Origin: an uncultured Planctomycetaceae bacterium
Lineage (GTDB): Bacteria > Planctomycetota > Planctomycetia > Pirellulales > UBA1268
Direction of reading: 5' to 3'
NCBI GenBank assembly: GCA_903885565.1
Contig: CAISJI010000098.1
Coordinates: forward strand, 62,001 to 126,000
Length of the DNA: 64,000 nucleotides
Shown here: positions 6,293-63,953 of the stretch, piece after piece
Numbering within the stretch: position 1 is the stretch's first letter
How the letters are laid out: each line of letters opens with the position of its first letter
Translations under genes and position numbers: made by a program
Notes under the pieces: model-generated
The model's database searches: none
Told to the model about the DNA's origin: nothing
What the model saw: the letters and a program-made list of their open reading frames with translations, nothing else

Positions 6293-7558
6293 ATGATCAG
6301 CTCTCAGCAGTTCGGTTTCATGGCGGGGCACCGGCACTTGACGGGGCGATTGGCCGCATGGCTGATGATCGTGGCGGGGGCTGCCGCTGGTGGCGGACTG
6401 TCGGTCGCACCGGCAGCGGGGGAAGAGGTGGCTTTTCGCCGAATCGTGTTGCATGAGGGCTTTCATGCCGAAGGGGCGGCCTTGGGCGATCTGAACAGAG
6501 ACGGCCATGGCGATGCCGTCTATGGGCCCTACTGGTATGCCGGCCCCGAGTTCAAGGTGCGGCATGAGATCTATCCGCCCGAGGATTTCGATCCGCTCAA
6601 ATATTCCAATAACTTTTTCACTGCCGTCAGCGACATCGATGCCGACGGCTGGCTCGATGTGGTGGTGAATGTGTGGCCCGGCAAGGAGGTGGTTTGGTTT
6701 CAGAATCCTGGCGCTTCTTGCGGGGCGTGGACACAAAACCTGGCCTATCCGGTGGTCGACAACGAGGCGCCCCACTTTGTCGATGTGACCGACGATGGCC
6801 GCCCGGAGCTGGTGTTTCACACTGCCGGCGTGCTGGGGATGGCCGGCCCCTCCGGGCCGACGGGCAGCGAGCGGTGGCCGTTTCGGGCCTGCTCCGAGCC
6901 GGAGAAGTGGGGGCAATATCAGCATGGCCTGGGGGTGGGGGATATCAATGGCGACGGCCGTGCCGACCTGCTCATGGCTGAGGGCTGGTGGGAGCAGCCC
7001 GCGGCCGAACCCGCAGCAGGCACCACGCCGCCGCTCTGGAAGAAACACCCCTTCAAGTTTGGCAACGGCGGGGCGCAGATCCATGCCTACGATGTCGATG
7101 GCGACGGCGATAACGATGTGATCACCAGCCTCGACGGCCATGCCTTCGGGCTCTCCTGGTTTGAGCAGGTGAAGAAGGATGGGGCGATCGATTTTGTCGA
7201 GCACAGGATCCTCTCCGACAAGCCGGAGGAGAATCTCGACGGCGTCCAGTTTTCTCAGCTGCATGCGCTGGAGCTGATCGATATCGACGGTGACGGCCTC
7301 AGGGATATCGTTACCGGCAAACGCTACTGGGCACACGGCCCAACAAGCGACGCCGACGCCGCTGGCGCGCCGGTGCTCTACTGGTTCAAGCTGACGCGCA
7401 ATCCCGACGGCACCGTCGCCTGGACGCCCCAGCGCATCGATGATGCCTCGGGAGTCGGCACGCAGTTTTCCGTGGGGGATATCAACGGCGACGGCCGCGC
7501 CGACATCGTGATCGGGAACAAAAAGGGGGGCTTTGTGTTCCTCCAGGAACGCCGCTGA
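6293..7558 (+). CDS. Secreted VCBS/FG-GAP repeat protein
   Basis: This 421-residue exported protein has a signal peptide (LAAWLMIVAGAAAGGGLSVAPAAGEE) followed by several Ca-binding FG-GAP/VCBS loops: DLNRDGHGD, DIDADGWLD, DINGDGRAD, DVDGDGDND, DIDGDGLRD and DINGDGRAD again. These loops build a seven-bladed propeller in integrin-like proteins and are abundant in planctomycete secretomes. No catalytic motif was seen, so the role (carbohydrate or surface binding) is unknown. AGGAACAG just upstream of 6293 serves as a ribosome binding site. It sits 86 bases after the ridA-like gene on the same strand. Confidence 0.85.
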   Translation: MISSQQFGFMAGHRHLTGRLAAWLMIVAGAAAGGGLSVAPAAGEEVAFRRIVLHEGFHAEGAALGDLNRDGHGDAVYGPYWYAGPEFKVRHEIYPPEDFDPLKYSNNFFTAVSDIDADGWLDVVVNVWPGKEVVWFQNPGASCGAWTQNLAYPVVDNEAPHFVDVTDDGRPELVFHTAGVLGMAGPSGPTGSERWPFRACSEPEKWGQYQHGLGVGDINGDGRADLLMAEGWWEQPAAEPAAGTTPPLWKKHPFKFGNGGAQIHAYDVDGDGDNDVITSLDGHAFGLSWFEQVKKDGAIDFVEHRILSDKPEENLDGVQFSQLHALELIDIDGDGLRDIVTGKRYWAHGPTSDADAAGAPVLYWFKLTRNPDGTVAWTPQRIDDASGVGTQFSVGDINGDGRADIVIGNKKGGFVFLQERR

Positions 7559-7672
7559 GGCGGTATCCCCTCAAGCTGCGGCGGTGAAAAGCTGGCTATG
7601 CGGTTCGGCTGGCCCGGAACCGGCCCGACAGGCTACATTTTGGGGTTTCGACGCGTTGGCCCCTGGCTGCCC

Positions 7673-7792
7673 GTGGAAAAAGTCACCCATGACCCTCTGG
7701 ATGGAAGACAGTCCACTCGGTCGACCGGTGAAAACGCCGAGGGTTTCCACGATCGACTGGCATCGCATCCGGCGATGGTGCACTTTTTCCAC
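7673..7792. repeat. Intergenic nested hairpin repeat, family B copy 1
   Basis: The element is bounded by an outer inverted repeat, GTGGAAAAAGT (7673-7683) and ACTTTTTCCAC (7782-7792). Inside are a GTCGACC...CGATCGAC hairpin and a CATCGC-atccg-GCGATG hairpin. The inner hairpins match, in reverse orientation, the elements at 54927-55018 and 63693-63953. It lies between the VCBS gene and valS. The rest of the 310-base gap (7559-7868) shows no gene. Confidence 0.75.
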
Positions 7793-7868
7793 AGCCTGCT
7801 AGCATCGTGCGCCCGGTTTTCGCGCTGAAGTCTGTTTCCCCGACTGCCTGTCCGTAGAAAAGGTTCCC

Positions 7869-10800
7869 ATGCAAGAGCTTCCCAAGCATTACGATCACCG
7901 CGCCGCCCAAGCCCGCTGCCGCAGCCTGTGGGATGCGGGCCGGTACTGGCATGCCGAACCGGAGGCTGGCCGCCGGACGTTTTCGATGGTTATTCCGCCG
8001 CCGAATGTGACCGGGGCTCTCCATCTGGGCCATGCCCTCAACAACACACTGCAGGATCTGCTGGTGCGCACGCGGCGCATGCAGGGGTTTCTCACGCTCT
8101 GGATGCCCGGCACGGACCACGCCGGCATCGCCACGCAGGCAGTTGTGGAACGTCGCCTCCTCGAAGAAGAAAAACTCTCCCGCCACGATCTCGGTCGGGA
8201 GAAATTGGTGGCGCGGATCTGGGACTGGAAGCAGCAGTATGAAACGCGCATCCTCGGGCAGCTGCGCGATCTGGGAGCGAGTTGCGATTGGGATCGCGTG
8301 CGCTTCACGCTCGACCAACAGTGCGCTGCTGCGGTGCGCACCGCTTTTTTCAGGCTGTTTGACCGGGGGCTTGTCCGCCGCGGCAAGCGGCTGGTGAACT
8401 GGGACACCTTCCTGCAAACCGCCGTCAGCGACGACGAGGTGTTTCACGAGGAGGTGAAGGGGCATTTCTGGCACATCCGCTACGACGTCATCGATCCACA
8501 GCCGGGCGAACCGGTGAGCGTGACTGTCGCCACCACCCGCCCCGAAACGCTTCTCGGGGATACGGCGGTGGCGGTCCATCCCGATCCGGCAGCGGCGCTG
8601 TCCGAGGCGGTGGAAGCTGTGAAGGCCAAGCGGGCGGCTGCGCCGGCGAGGGAGCAGGCAGCGCTCGAAGCAGCCCTGGAAGAACTCGCCACGCGGGCCC
8701 GCGATCTGCTGCCGGGGCTCAAAGCTCTGGCCGCAATGGCTGCGGCCGGCAGGCAGGTGCGGCTGCCGCTGATGGGGCGGCCGATCCCGCTGGTGGCGGA
8801 TGAATGGGCCAAGCCGGAGATGGGCTCAGGCTGCGTGAAGATCACCCCCGCCCACGACCCCAACGACTACGAGGTGGGAAAGCGCCGGGGACTGGAGATG
8901 AAAAACATCCTCAATCCCGACGGCACGCTCAATGCCGAGGCGGGGCCCTACGCCGGCCTCACCATGAACAAGGCCCGCACCCGTGTGGTGGCCGATCTGG
9001 AGGCAGCGGGGCAACTGGAGCGCGTCGAAGATCGGCTGATCGAGCTGGCCCACTCCGATCGTTCCAAGACGCCGATCGAGCCCTATCTGGCCGATCAGTG
9101 GTTTATCCGGATGGACGAACTTGCCCAGCCGGCCCTCGATGCGGTCAGCTCAGGCCAGCTGCGGATCGTTCCGCAGCGCTATGCCAAGAGCTATCTCGAC
9201 TGGCTCTCGGAGAAGCGCGACTGGCCGGTGAGCCGGCAGCTCTGGTGGGGCCATCAGATTCCGATCTGGCACATCGATCAGGTGCGCGAGAGCGATCTGC
9301 AGCAGGCCTTTGCCGGCCGCGCAACGGTCTCCTGGAAGCCTGACGGCCGCAGCACTGAGACCGACGCCGGGCAGCCGGGGGGCTGGTTTGTCTGCTCCTC
9401 GGATGAGGAGCTGGGGGTGGAGAGCGTGGCAGGCCACAAGCTCAGCCGCGATCCCGACGTGCTCGATACCTGGTTTTCCTCCGCTCTCTGGCCCCACTCC
9501 ACGCTCGGCTGGCCCGAGGCAACGCCGGAGCTGGCCTGCTTCTATCCCACCACGGCGCTGATCACCAGCCGCGACATCATCACGCTCTGGGTGGCGCGGA
9601 TGGTGATCATGGGGGTGTTTGACACCGGCAAGCTCCCCTTCGGCGAGGTCTACATCCATCCCAAGATCCTCGACCGCTACGGCGAGACGATGAGCAAGAG
9701 CAAGGGGAATGGCGTCGATCCGCTCGATGTGATCGATGTGCTCGGAGCCGATGCCCTGCGCTTCGGGATGGTGAGCATGGCGACCGAGACGCAGGATGTG
9801 CGGATGCCGGTCGAATTCCAGTGCCCGCACTGCGAAGCGAGGATCGATCAGACGGTGCAGAATCGGATGCAGCCGCGGATCGAGTGTGCCAAATGCAAAC
9901 AGGCGTTTCGCACGCAGTGGGCCCAGGCGGCCGCCGATCTGGCCCTGCCCCGTGGGCCGGCCGTCAGCGAGCGCTTTGAGGCAGGCCGGAATTTTTCCAA
10001 CAAGCTGTGGAACGCCACCCGGTTTGTGTTGATGAATCTGGATGGGTATTCAGGGAGCGACCTTTCCGCCTGGGGTCAGGCCGATGCAAAAGCTTTTGAG
10101 ACGCTGGAAGATCGCTGGCTGGCGAGCCGGCTGGCGAGTGTGAGCCGGGATGTGACGGCGGCGATCGACGAATACCGCTTCGCCGAGGCGGCCCGGCTGC
10201 TCTACAGCTTCGCCTGGGACGAGTTTTGCAGTGCCTACCTGGAGCTGTGCAAATCGAGGCTCTCTGATCCGGCCCGCTGCGAGCAGGCCCGCGCGATGCT
10301 GATGCTGGCGCTCGACACGATTCTGCGGCTGATCCATCCGCTGATGCCGTTTGTGAGCGAGGAGATCTGGCAGCATCTGCGGCTGGTGGCAGGCGACCGG
10401 CGGATGCCGTGGGACGTGGCCGAGGGGCCGGCGGAGTCGATCATGATTGCCCGCTGGCCAACGCCCCCCCCGTCCTGGATCGATCCGCGCACAGAAGAGC
10501 AGTTTGGGACTTTCCTGGGGGTTGTTGGGGCGATTCGCGAGGTGCGGGCCCGGCAAAACGTGCCGCCCCGCACCCGGGTGCAGGCGGCCCTGCGGCTGCC
10601 GGCGGCCACGGCCGAACTGCTGCTGCCGATGCACGCGGCGATCGAATCGATGGCAATGGTGGAACTGACGGCGGTGGGCCCGGAGGCCGCCGGAGCGGCG
10701 GGGGCCGCCAGCGCCGCTGTGCCGGGAGGGGAGGTGCTCCTCGATCTGGCGGCGACGGTCGACGTGGGAGCGGAGAAGGTGCGGCTGGCGAAGGAGAACG

Positions 10801-11517: not shown

Positions 11518-11547
11518 AGACTTCGGGTTCACTGGAGCCAAGAACGA

Positions 11548-11980
11548 GTGACGGAGGCGGAGGGGTCGGCGAACTTTTTGTGAGCACCGATCGGCTGCGG
11601 CCAAGTGACGAAACCTGCGCCGTCCCGCAGCCGAGGGGCCACGGAAGTCGAAGTCACTCTAGGTCCGGGGCTGCCCATGCCCGACGCCTGCCGTTCGCTG
11701 CGGCCCTCCAGGCCTTTCGCTCACTCGAAGTTGGCTGCGCTTCGCCATCCATGGCTCCGCTGGCCGCCTACGCCGGCTCCTGGGGCACGGGCAGCCCCTC
11801 CCCGAACACCGATCAGGAAGGCCGGTGGAGGCGGAGGGATCGGCGAACGCTCGAGGAACGCAGGGCCGCTTCGGCCCAAGCGACGAGACTTTTGCCGTCC
11901 CGCAGCCGGCGATGCCTGCAAGCAGGATACGCGTTAGGTCCGTGGCAGCCCCTCCCCGAACATCGATCAGGAAGGCCGAT
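11548..11980. repeat. Intergenic repeat island, family A (two units) plus direct repeats
   Basis: This lies in a 494-base gap (11518-12011) with no credible gene. Two units, about 11548-11635 and 11825-11912, share GGAGGCGGAGGGRTCGGCGAAC near the start and CGTCCCGCAGCCG near the end. The second contains the perfect hairpin GGGCCG-ctt-CGGCCC. Between and after them is a roughly 35-base direct repeat beginning GGCAGCCCCTCCCCGAACA, at 11790-11824 and 11944-11978. The units reappear in reverse orientation at 36831-37110. Confidence 0.7.
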
Positions 11981-12011
11981 GCAGGGGGAAAATGGAAGTC
12001 GATCTCGCCAG

Positions 12012-30462: not shown

Positions 30463-32172
30463 GTGGCCAAACAAATGGTGTTCGACGACGAGGCCCGTCA
30501 GCCGCTGCTCGCCGGCGTTTCCAAGCTCGCCCGCGCGGTGAAGAGCACGCTCGGCCCCCGCGGCCGCAACGCGGTGCTCGACAAAGGCTGGGGCTCGCCC
30601 AAGGTCACCAAGGACGGCGTGACGGTCGCCGAGGACATCGATCTGGAAGATCCCTATGAGAATCTCGGCGCGCAACTGGTGAAGGAAGCCGCCAGCAAGA
30701 CCAACGACGTCGCTGGCGACGGCACGACCACCGCCACCGTGCTGGCCGAGGCGATCTTCCGCGAAGGCCTCAAGATGATCGCTGCCGGCGCTGATCCGAT
30801 GGCGCTGTCCCGCGGCATTCACAAGGCTGTTGAGGCCGTTTCGAAGTCGATTCTGGCGATGGCCACGCCGATCAATGAGAAAAACAAGAAGGAATTGATG
30901 CAGGTCGCCACGATCGCTGGCAACAACGATCCGACGATTGGCAATGTTCTTGCCGAGGCTTTTCTGAAGGTGGGCAAGGATGGCGTGATCACCGTGGAAG
31001 AGGGAAAGCAGGCCGAGACGACCGTGGACGTCGTCGAGGGAATGCAGTTCGATCGCGGCTTCCTGTCTCCCCATTTCGTCACCGATGCCGATTCGCAGAC
31101 CTGCGAGATGGAGAACCCCTACATCCTCCTGTTCGAGGAAAAGGTCTCAAGTGCCAAGAATCTGGTGCCGCTGCTGGAGGCCATCAGCAAGGCCGGCAAG
31201 CCGCTGGTGGTGATCGCCGAGGATGTCGATGGCGAGGCTCTGGCCACTCTGGTGGTCAACAAGTTGCGGGGCATCGTGCAGTCGGTGGCGATCAAGGCTC
31301 CCGGCTACGGCGATCGCCGCAAGGCAATCATGGGAGATCTCGCTGCCCTGACCGGTGGTCAGGCGATCTTCAAGGATCTCGGCATTGCTCTCGATGCTGT
31401 GAAGCTCAGCGACTTGGGGCGTGCCAAGAAGGTGATCATTGATGCCGAGAACACCACGATCGTCAGCGGTGCCGGCTCAAAGGCCGCTATCGAAGGTCGG
31501 GTGGCCCAGATCCGGGCCGAAATCGAAAACACTGACAGCGATTACGACCGTGAGAAGCTGCAGGAGCGGCTGGCCAAACTGGCTGGCGGCGTGGCTCAGA
31601 TCAACGTCGGCGCAGCCACGGAAACCGAGATGAAGGAGCGCAAGGCGCTCATCGAGGATGCCCGCAGCGCCACGCAGGCGGCGCTCGCCGAAGGAATCGT
31701 GCCGGGAGGGGGCATCGCCCTGCTCCGCAGCGAGAAGGCTGTGGAGAAGCTCGACCTCGAAGGGGACGAGAAGATGGGCGCCACGATTGTGAAGAACGCC
31801 CTTCGCTATCCGCTCGAGGCCATCGCCGCCAACGCGGGAGTGGATGGCCCTGTGGTGGTCAACAGGGTGCGCCACATGAAGGGCAAGAACGACGGCTACG
31901 ACGCCGACAAGGAAGAGTATTGTGATCTGGTGGCCGCTGGCGTCATCGATCCAGCCAAGGTTGTACGGACAGCCCTGCAAAACGCCGCGAGCGTGGCGGC
32001 GCTGTTGCTCACCACCGAGTCGCTGATCACCGAGATCCCCAAGGCCGAAGAAGAGGCCGGTGGCGACGGCCACGACCACCACGGCATGGGTGGCGGCGGC
32101 ATGGGCGGAATGGGCGGTGGTATGGGCGGCATGGGCGGCATGGGAATGGGTGGCATGGGCGGCATGATGTAA
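30463..32172 (+). CDS. groEL: Chaperonin GroEL, copy 1 (GGM tail)
   Basis: This 60-kDa chaperonin has 569 residues and an intact ATPase: [31 protein letters not shown] and [15 protein letters not shown]. The C-terminal domain has the expected [10 protein letters not shown]. The tail is long and glycine-methionine rich (many GMGG units) preceded by GHDHHGMG, as in main housekeeping GroELs, where it lines the folding chamber. The GTG at 30463, 6 bases after GAGGAG, is the chosen start; the open frame continues upstream to 30322 without chaperonin sequence. No CIRCE element was found in the 274 bases upstream. It leads a block with groES, a second groEL, dnaJ and grpE. Confidence 0.96.
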
Positions 32173-32260
32173 GCCCTGGTTTGAAGTCCGGCTGTCCGCG
32201 AGTCGTCGGTTCAAATTTTGGATTTCTGGTTTTTCACACACACGTTTTGGAGTTTTTTTC

Positions 32261-32566
32261 ATGGCAGCGAAGCATTTGAAGATCCGTCCGCTGGAAGACC
32301 GCGTGGTGGTGCAGCCGATGGAGGCCGAAGAGCGCACCGCCGGCGGCATCGTTCTGCCCGATAGCGCCAAGGAGAAGCCACAGCGTGGCCACGTGGTGGC
32401 GCTCGGACCGGGCAAGCTCCTCGAGAGCGGCCAGCGGGCGACCATGTCGCTGGCGATCGGCGATGAGGTCATCTACGGCAAGTATTCCGGCAGCGAGATC
32501 GAGGTCGACGGCCACGATGTGAAGATCCTCCGCGAGAGCGATATTCTCGCCAAAATCCAGAGCTAG
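32261..32566 (+). CDS. groES: Co-chaperonin GroES
   Basis: This 101-residue heptameric lid of the chaperonin has the standard pattern [46 protein letters not shown], which includes the mobile loop that docks onto GroEL, then [31 protein letters not shown]. The length is normal. It lies 88 bases after groEL1 and 86 bases before groEL2, so it sits between two chaperonin genes instead of upstream of one, and may serve both. Confidence 0.97.
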
Positions 32567-32652
32567 ATCCAGAGCTCAAGCCCGTTCGGCACTGCTGTAC
32601 CAGCCAGATTTTTCATTCCCCTTTTTTGAGTCCATCCTGAGGAGAACGTTCC

Positions 32653-34272
32653 GTGCCCAAACAACTTCTGTTCGACGACAACGCACGTGCCAAGCTGCTC
32701 AAGGGCGTGGAAAAACTGGCCGGCGCCGTAGCGGTGACGATGGGCCCCACCGGGCGCAACGTCATCATCGACAAGTCGTTTGGCGGTCCCACCGTCACGA
32801 AAGACGGCGTGACTGTGAGCAAGGAAGTCGATCTGGAGGATCCCTTCGAAAACATGGGCGCGAAGCTCGTGAACGAAGTTGCCTCCAAGACATCCGATCT
32901 CGCCGGCGACGGCACCACCACCGCGACCGTGCTCGCCCGGGCTATTTTTCGCGAGGGCACCCGGATGGTGGCTGCTGGCAGTAATCCAATGGCTGTGCGC
33001 CGGGGAATTGAGAAGGCCGTGGCGGCTGCCGTCGGCCGCCTCACGGAGATGGCAAAGAAGGTGGAGCGTCCCGAAGAAGTGGCGCAGGTTGGGGCTATCA
33101 GTGCCAACAACGACCGCTCGATCGGCGATCTGCTTGCCCAGGCCCTGCAGAAGGTGGGCAAGGATGGCGTGATCACTGTTGAGGAAGGGAAGACGACTGA
33201 AACGACCGTGCGTTTCGTCGACGGCATGCAGTTCGACAAGGGCTACATCTCCCCCTACTTCATCAATCGCACCGCCGAGATGGTCTGCCAACTCGATGAT
33301 TGCCTCATCCTCATTCACGAGAAGAAGATTTCGAACCTCCGCGATCTGCTGCCGTTGCTCGAGAAGGTGGCCCAGTCGGGCAAGCCGCTGTTGATTATCG
33401 CCGAAGACATCGACGGCGACGCCCTCACGGCTCTGGTGGTCAACAAACTTCGCGGCGTGCTCAATATCTGTGCTTCGAAGGCTCCTGGCTTCGGAGATCG
33501 CCGCAAGGCGATGCTGGGCGATATCGCCATGCTCACCGGTGGCACGCTGATCAGTGAGGATCTGGGACTCAAACTGGAGAGCCTCGATCTCTCCCACCTC
33601 GGCCGCGCCAAGACCGTGACGGTCGACAAGAACGAGACCACGATCGTGCAGGGGGCCGGCAAGCAGACCGATGTGGCCGCCCGCGTTCAGCAGATCCGCA
33701 ATCAGATCGATGGCACCGAGAGCGAGTACGATCGGGAGAAACTGCAGGAGCGGCTCGCGAAGCTCACCGGCGGCGTCGCGATCGTCTCTGTCGGGGCTGG
33801 CACCGAGGCCGAGATGAAGCAGAAGAAGGCCCGCGTCGAGGATGCTCTGCATGCCACACGCGCGGCCGTGGAAGAGGGGATTGTGCCGGGCGGTGGCGTC
33901 GCCCTGCTCCGCTGCCGCGAGGCGGTCGAGAAAGCCCGTTCCCAGGCCAAGGGAGACGAGAAGATCGGCATCGACATTGTGCTGCAGGCGCTTGAGGCCC
34001 CCATTCGGCAGATCGCCGAGAATGGCGGCATCGACGGCTCCGTGGTGGCCGATGAGGTGGCCGGGAAGGATATTCATATCGGCTACGACGCCAACAAGGG
34101 CGAGTATGTCGACATGCTCAAGGCTGGGATCATCGATCCGGTCAAGGTGGTGCGCGTGGCCCTCACCAATGCCGCGAGCATTGCCGGCCTTCTCCTCACG
34201 ACCGAGGCGCTGGTCACAAACCTCGACAAGGATGACGCCAAGAAGCACCGTGTCGAAGGCAGCGTGCGGTAG
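32653..34272 (+). CDS. groEL: Chaperonin GroEL, copy 2 (no GGM tail)
   Basis: This second chaperonin has 539 residues, with an ATPase motif set similar to copy 1 ([40 protein letters not shown]) and [10 protein letters not shown]. It lacks the glycine-methionine tail and ends in a charged stretch, [15 protein letters not shown]. Apical-domain segments also differ ([34 protein letters not shown] against copy 1 [31 protein letters not shown]). This suggests a specialised paralogue with different clients. The start is a GTG with GAGGAG upstream. Planctomycetes commonly carry several groEL genes; adjacency with groES between is notable. Confidence 0.95.
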
Positions 34273-36794: not shown

Positions 36795-36830
36795 CAGGCC
36801 CGCTCTGGGGGAAACCGACTTCCGTGGCTT

Positions 36831-37110
36831 CCTCGAGTGTTCGCCGCCCCCTCCGCCTCCGTCACCCGCTGTGTTCGGTTGGTTACGGCTTCCGGAGTGC
36901 CCCCGGCTGCGGGACGGCAAAAGTCTCGTCGCATGCGCTCCTCGAGCGTTCGCCGATCCCTCCGCCTCCGTCGCCCGCTGTGTTCGGTTGGTTACGACTT
37001 CCGCAGTGCCCCCGGCTGCGGGACGGCGCAGGTTTCGTCGCTTGGGCCGCAGCGGCTCAGCGCTCCTCGAGCGTTCGCCGACCCCTCCGCCTCCGTCACC
37101 CGCCGTATTG
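36831..37110. repeat. Tandem intergenic repeats, family A (two full units, one partial)
   Basis: Three consecutive units begin with CCTCGAGYGTTCGCCG at 36831, 36940 and 37065, giving lengths of about 109 and 125 bases and a partial third. Units share CCCTCCGCCTCCGTC, GTGTTCGGTTGGTTACG and CCCCCGGCTGCGGGACGG. The longer second unit has an extra TTGGGCCGCAGCGGCTCAG hairpin. They correspond, in opposite orientation, to the island at 11548-11980. They fill most of the 442-base gap between yacG and the membrane-protein gene; the remainder, 37111-37236, has no gene. Confidence 0.75.
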
Positions 37111-54926: not shown

Positions 54927-55018
54927 CATCGCCGGATGCGATGCCTGTCGGCCGTGGAAACCCTTGGCGTTTCCACCGGCCGACCCGAAGCGGAACAAGG
55001 CCCTGGAGGGCTTGTTCC
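54927..55018. repeat. Intergenic hairpin repeat, family B copy 2
   Basis: The order is CATCGC-cggat-GCGATG (54927-54943), GTCGGCCG...CGGCCGAC with an inner TGGAAACC...GTTTCCA stem (54947-54984), then GGAACAAG-cc...gg-CTTGTTCC (54992-55018). It sits between two minus-strand genes that otherwise look like one operon, so it could act as an RNA processing or attenuation structure. Confidence 0.75.
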
Positions 55019-55028
55019 GCGTACAGCT

Positions 55029-63692: not shown

Positions 63693-63953
63693 CCCACTGG
63701 TGGAACAAGTCCATGGATGGCTTGTTCCACACATATCCTGTTCCACACATATCATCGCCGGAAGCGATGCCGGTCGGCCGTGGGAATCCTTGGCATTCGC
63801 ACCGGCCGACCCACTGGTGGAACAAGTCCATGGATGGCTTGTTCCACACATATCATCGCCGGAAGCGATGCCGGTCGGCCGTGGGAATCCTTGGCATTCG
63901 CACCGGCCGACCCACTGGTGGAACAAGGCCATGGATGGCTTGTTCCACACATA
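63693..63953. repeat. Tandem family B repeat array
   Basis: Units starting CCCACTGGTGGAACAAG are at 63693, 63810 and 63911 (partial). The second period is 101 bases; the first is longer by a short duplicated TGTTCCACACATATC-type stretch. Each unit contains GGAACAAG...CTTGTTCC, CATCGC-cggaa-GCGATG and GTCGGCCG...CGGCCGAC hairpins, the same three structures as at 54927-55018. Near identity of the units points to recent duplication. Confidence 0.85.

Follow-up and report, generated by a model that had tools for sequence, protein, structure and literature searches.

Three sites with similar hairpins lie in the window, which is the whole stretch of 64,000 nt analysed here (C98:62001-126000 of genome G000, a draft of 4.46 Mb in 279 contigs), and they raise the question of what kind of repeat they represent and what has spread it. 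The original prediction assigned them to one family of three-hairpin repeats resembling REP/BIME elements, conserved in structure over sequence and possibly moved by a transposase elsewhere.

Hairpin sites in the window and two sub-types of the repeat

Hairpins were present on inspection of the sequence at all positions predicted (Table 1). The pattern of the third hairpin, with up to three mismatches, has four matches in the window versus 0.00 expected from 100 shuffles, so the matches are not due to chance. The tandem arrangement of the last site was recovered with a 101-nt period, and in a repeat-pair comparison the copy at 7.7 kb is the inverted partner of the copy at 54.9 kb, which agrees with the reverse orientation assigned to it; only its extent, given as 7673-7792, was too short by some nucleotides at both ends. 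The three sites belong to one family as proposed, but they are not equivalent, as terminal inverted repeats (TIRs) are present at the first site and at neither of the other two. The idea that the family might be limited to these three copies is ruled out, as BLAST with a 103-nt unit found 51 places in the same genome.

Table 1. Positions of the hairpin repeats and associated features, counted from the first nucleotide of the window
Feature	Position	Strand	Remarks
Full-length element, 132-nt variant, with both TIRs and three hairpins	7667..7798	-	Model match 121 bits, E 1.1e-26; one of 72 copies
Genes flanking 7667..7798			FG-GAP protein gene and valyl-tRNA synthetase gene
Left TIR, CAGGCTGTGGAAAAAG as minus-strand read	7783..7798 (C98:69783-69798)	-	
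Right TIR, CTGCCCGTGGAAAAAG as plus-strand read	7667..7682	+	
Decayed 4-bp target duplication, flanking CTAG	7799..7802	.	Partner CTGG at 7663-7666, one mismatch
Hairpin 1, TIR-less copy	54927..54943	+	
Hairpin 2, TIR-less copy	54947..54984	+	
Hairpin 3, TIR-less copy	54990..55020	+	Model match to the TIR-less copy 80 bits
TIR-less tandem array	63693..63953	+	Hairpin 3 three times, hairpins 1-2 twice, period 101

When the copies were lined up, two sub-types were recognized. Sub-type 1 has the ends CAGGCTGTGGATAAAG... and ...CTTTTTCCAC(A/G)GNCAG with YTAG beyond each end, and the intact element at 7667-7798 has the ends CAGGCTGTGGAWAAAG and YTAG-type flanks. The TIR pattern with up to one mismatch occurs at 163 sites and the exact pattern at 81, versus 5 and 1, respectively, for the reversed-pattern control. 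Seventy-two full copies, mostly of 118-120 or 129-136 nt, were extracted from fetched own-genome loci (71 of them were taken into A1); 14 more full-length matches bring the total to at least 86. Among relatives, 148 of 165 cmsearch matches were carried in, excluding those cut by a contig end, matching only part of the model, or lying opposite a better match on the other strand, and deduplication left 125 non-redundant copies (two own-genome rows, L339 and L340, included), of which 113 are 118-119 nt long. The element, at 100-150 nt, is too short for a transposase gene. It is a gene-less MITE with three hairpins inside and a length of about 119 nt (118-119 nt; some variants reach about 150 nt). 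Copies of the own genome are mosaic, with short or long hairpin 3 and the end types combined with both HP1/HP2 types, and in genus g7 some copies have other hairpins in place of HP1-HP2 with total length unchanged.

Covariance model R1 had matches in all 12 genera of the taxonomic family and in 64 of the 72 family genomes (E up to 0.001, at most 50 candidates scored per genome). When the order was sampled evenly and searched at E up to 1e-6 with at most 14 candidates per genome, 43 of 246 genomes were positive: 43 of the 50 that belong to the own family, and none of the 196 from other families. The third hairpin was recorded in at least 103 stretches; among the 80 listed, the named records were planctomycete metagenome genomes, some labelled Candidatus Kuenenia, except one labelled Gammaproteobacteria. 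Element and flank are near-identical across different genera in L170 (G014) and L171 (G038), and again in L225 (G017) and G005:C422, which represents either misbinned contigs or transfer.

Sub-type 2 has no TIRs. Twenty-two of 45 BLAST places examined were without both ends, the copy at 54927 and the 63.7 kb array among them, a share that is biased because the BLAST query itself was of sub-type 2. The best match to the left TIR has 8 mismatches of 16 at 54927, and 8 and 7 of 16 in the two units of the array. The copy at 54927 directly follows the stop codon of a 2-hydroxyacid dehydrogenase gene, and the next gene, Ldh_2, is co-directional with it. Both TIR-less sites of the window are REP-like in look and are proposed to be a derived or sister hairpin-only form of the element. 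Several TIR-less copies (e.g., C248:44802, C222:20664, and C137:24262) lie directly beside TTCTGA, which may be where a gene ends, with ATATACGC-like sequence after it; such a neighbourhood suggests that these copies may have a separate target.

Other repeats were also noted in the window. A second dispersed family is at 11545-11989 and 36822-37109 in opposite orientations, with tandem 109-nt units of GAGCGTTCGCCGATCCCTCCGCCTC type at 36830, and outside the window sequence like it adjoins several of the TIR-less hairpin copies of the genome. At 30892-34231, two stretches resemble each other at a distance of 2184 bp, with a glycine-methionine-rich repeat at 32095-32166; they are presumably paralogous chaperonin genes.

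Paired changes in the hairpin stems

Covariation was evaluated on A2, in which 144 copies were reduced to 96 non-redundant ones by removing length outliers, copies with alternative HP1-HP2, and then copies fewer than 7 edits apart. Standard pairs occupy 90.4% of the cells of HP1-HP3, and two-sided changes numbered 330. Shuffles gave 115.9 +/- 8.5, none of the 500 reaching the observed count, and slid versions gave no more than 98; as the shuffle controls ignore relatedness, these figures are not to be read as probabilities. Pair 53-74 occurs as all four Watson-Crick types (27, 25, 20, and 10), and the loops of HP1-HP3 are near-constant. The excess of two-sided changes bears out that structure was kept over sequence. 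The example quoted for it, GTGGAAAC/GTTTCCAC against GTGGGAAT/ATTCGCAC, holds in part, since reading of the sequence gives two compensated pairs but one broken pair. The alternative outer stem predicted at 7.7 kb does exist, formed by pairing of the two TIRs, but it was rejected as a conserved structure, as two-sided cells numbered 2 versus 2.7 in shuffles. In the TIR-less copies of the own genome, 43 two-sided changes were counted in 16 rows versus at most 19 in 500 shuffles, after 6 of 22 rows had been excluded as incomplete or duplicate.

Covariation of this kind could also have a mutational origin. When the template is switched at an imperfect palindrome, one arm is rewritten from the other, and perfect stems would persist without selection, a process compatible with the element being a MITE. 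It would fit the frequent two-sided changes, the near-constant loops, and the many different well-paired stems held by the TIR-less copies of one genome. It would also fit the weak excess of G-T intermediates: raw counts of G-T and A-C in the stems are 83 and 85, and in well-formed helices G-T numbers 49 and A-C 23, with 81 other mismatches. Template switching alone does not, however, demand that copies of relatives be held at 118-119 nt (113 of 125), or that the interior stay hairpin-built even after HP1-HP2 have been replaced by other hairpins. It is tentatively retained as a possible source of the covariation.

Insertion sites and neighbouring genes

The 4-bp flanks are identical in 26 of the 72 own-genome copies (shuffled partners: mean 10.9, maximum 21 in 2000 shuffles) and in 48 of 125 copies of relatives (mean 24.8, maximum 37), while 5-bp flanks are identical in 1/72 and 0/125, respectively. 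CTAG is palindromic, so only non-palindromic flanks were counted for direction; direct identity was found in 11/56 copies of the own genome and 12/87 of relatives (23/143 together), versus inverted identity in 2/56 and 1/87 (3/143 together). The target duplication is direct, of fixed 4 bp, and mostly CTAG. One copy, L225 of G017, is situated where two genes converge, and each TAG of its duplication serves one of them as stop codon. The same gene junction of the congener G016 is the empty site: the element is absent, there is a single CTAG, and the 16-nt spacer length is kept. At this junction, G018:C190 (L355) and G019:C608 (L354) have about 1.8 kb of other sequence.

Seventy of the 72 own-genome copies lie outside coding sequence, according to a simple gene caller based on codon usage whose calls were not compared with annotation, and 42 are within 100 nt of the 3' end of a gene. 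Of the background CTAG sites of the same genome (n = 73), 44 are intergenic, 14 are at stop codons, and 15 are in coding sequence. Genes seldom contain CTAG, which may include stops on both strands, and for this reason insertions are intergenic and often on TAG stops. Copies abutting a stop codon (16/72) resemble this background (14/73), so no extra targeting is needed, and stop-codon targeting beyond the choice of CTAG was rejected for the own genome; among relatives, 46 of 125 copies abut a stop codon. Coding-sequence copies are fewer than the background (2/72 versus 15/73), which suggests that harmful insertions were removed.

The repeat could instead act as structured RNA, be it a terminator, a small RNA, or a cis-regulatory element, and have spread through its usefulness to host genes. 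The strong stem covariation and near-constant loops would agree with this, as would the folding of the eight strands examined, which was better than that of their shuffles (z -2.4 to -6.5), and the frequent position near 3' ends. This position, however, follows the distribution of CTAG, orientation to the upstream gene is unbiased (33 same, 32 opposite, 7 unknown), and G-T only weakly exceeds A-C in well-formed helices, as the counts above indicate. No Rfam family matched, either in the window at gathering scores or in seven loci at E up to 1. Terminator scans found none at 54.9 kb; at 7.7 kb there were 2 where 0.3 were expected, and in L168 there were 2 where 2.7 were expected, and a terminator role was rejected for want of a consistent signal. 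As orientation, Rfam, and the terminator scans give it no consistent backing, a host role is at most putative, and spread as a structured RNA is considered improbable. The hairpins seem rather to serve the element itself, by folding at the DNA level or through host tolerance, than a host gene.

Candidate transposases and related systems

Among relatives, one TIR match led to L119, an internally deleted IS1182-family gene (NF033551 E 7e-38; DUF772, DDE_Tnp_1_6), which is bounded by CTAG before CAGGCTGTGGAAAAAG and after CTTTGTCCAAGGGTTG. A search with NF033551 had matches in 17 of the 72 family genomes, none of them above the NCBIfam curated cut-off. Of 19 IS1182 loci examined, 13 have a YTAG and TIR end beside the gene (up to 4 mismatches) and 6 have none; three of the 19 have both ends, and copies with matching ends on both sides are L155, L138, and L119/L143. 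L155 is a complete example with a 457-aa frame, in which CTAG precedes CAGCCTGTGGAAAAAG and follows CTTTGTCCACGGCCTG. As to whether internal sequence of the element derives from the IS, R1 had only a marginal match in L119 (E 0.44). In the own draft genome no intact IS1182 gene was found and one relic only, L151 (C245, about 7250-7985), whose still readable ends are CCGGCTGTGGATAAAG and CTTGGCCACGGCCTG and enclose a C-terminal fragment of IS1182. Counting against this mover are the scores below the cut-off, the absence of an intact gene from the own draft genome, and the 55 of the 72 family genomes without an IS1182 match, though most carry the element.

Because IS1182 copies of relatives share ends and flanks with the element and a relic is present in the own genome, an IS1182 transposase is likely the mover, as judged from shared ends, which do not prove movement in trans. 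Such a DDE transposase would recognise the ends CAGRCYGTGGA..AAG, excise the element, and insert it at a YTAG site (CTAG in most cases), with 4 bp duplicated; where the insertion falls on a TAG stop codon, the duplication would restore the stop. Thus a CTAG target would let insertions occupy stop codons with proteins unchanged. This mechanism leaves the TIR-less copies unexplained. As movers in the own genome, DDE_Tnp_1 (IS4/IS5-type) and DDE_5 (IS701-type) had no matches and were rejected; IS701 had been a candidate since a conserved duplication of 4 bp is described for it (PMC2266710). Most probably the element is a MITE, a DNA transposon that is non-autonomous and depends on an IS1182-family DDE transposase acting in trans, and the predicted movement by a transposase elsewhere is in this respect probable.

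IS1272, a member of the IS1182 family, is reported in PMC5678879 to replace inverted repeats or stem-loops without target duplication; in contrast, the element leaves clean 4-bp duplications, which counts against an IS1182 mover. If IS1182-type transposases act on extruded stem-loops, as has been proposed for IS1272, the three hairpins could be substrates of transposition that must fold as DNA, an unlikely reading. Stems would then covary for foldability, whole hairpins would be swapped through stem-loop replacement, and the transposon would be defined by shape and end sequence, not by interior sequence.

MITEs are usually regarded as near-identical, recently amplified, and species-bound. In this one, a single architecture of near-fixed length, three hairpins, compensated stems, and exchangeable modules recurs across a bacterial family, and an abundant planctomycete repeat appears tied to a transposase family with unusual proposed chemistry. 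The element is a natural data set for deciding whether DNA hairpins in a transposon are selected, mutational by-products, or transposase substrates.

The predicted REP/BIME membership, with a REP-associated tyrosine transposase (RAYT) as mover, fared less well. The repeat is like REP/BIME in its palindromic, extragenic, clustered copies, tandem at 63.7 kb, and in its compensated stems, which covary among TIR-less copies within one genome (the 43 changes above) as described for REPs in PMC2817692. One RAYT-like Y1_Tnp gene, the sole one found in the own genome, was located (L032, C247:15241-15966, minus strand), but the 6 kb searched around it contained none of the family's hairpins or TIRs. 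REPs are defined as palindromes of 20-40 bp with a GTAG or CGTC tag and a flanking RAYT gene (PMC3733652, PMC2817692), and IS200/IS605-type elements are described without terminal inverted repeats and target duplications (PMC2817692). In contrast, the unit here is 119 nt, the family consensus has neither tag, and TIRs and exact 4-bp duplications are present. For the TIR-bearing copies, this assignment was rejected on the TIRs, the duplications, and the bare surroundings of the Y1_Tnp gene, and spread of the repeats by RAYT is very improbable; the IS1182-family DDE transposase is the better match.

Among known systems, the IS1182-family insertion sequences (NF033551) of the taxonomic family have ends and YTAG flanks that match those of the element; unlike the element, they carry a transposase gene. 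BOX elements of pneumococcus are a modular structured repeat with exchangeable parts, a modularity of architecture that the element has too. BOX is named in the MITE review PMC10969869, in which neither IS1182 nor Planctomyc occurs. No description of the element or of a planctomycete IS1182 MITE was found among open-licence PMC papers. The MITE family is new and its kind is known; unusual are the covarying hairpins kept family-wide. As far as PMC10969869 describes them, the folded bacterial MITEs Correia and ERIC are the nearest kind, compared by description, not by sequence: they are likewise short and intergenic, with TIRs, a short target duplication, many copies, and predicted folded transcripts. 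The element differs from them in its ends, its YTAG target, and its three separate hairpins with near-constant loops, and it spans a whole planctomycete family with an IS1182-type partner.
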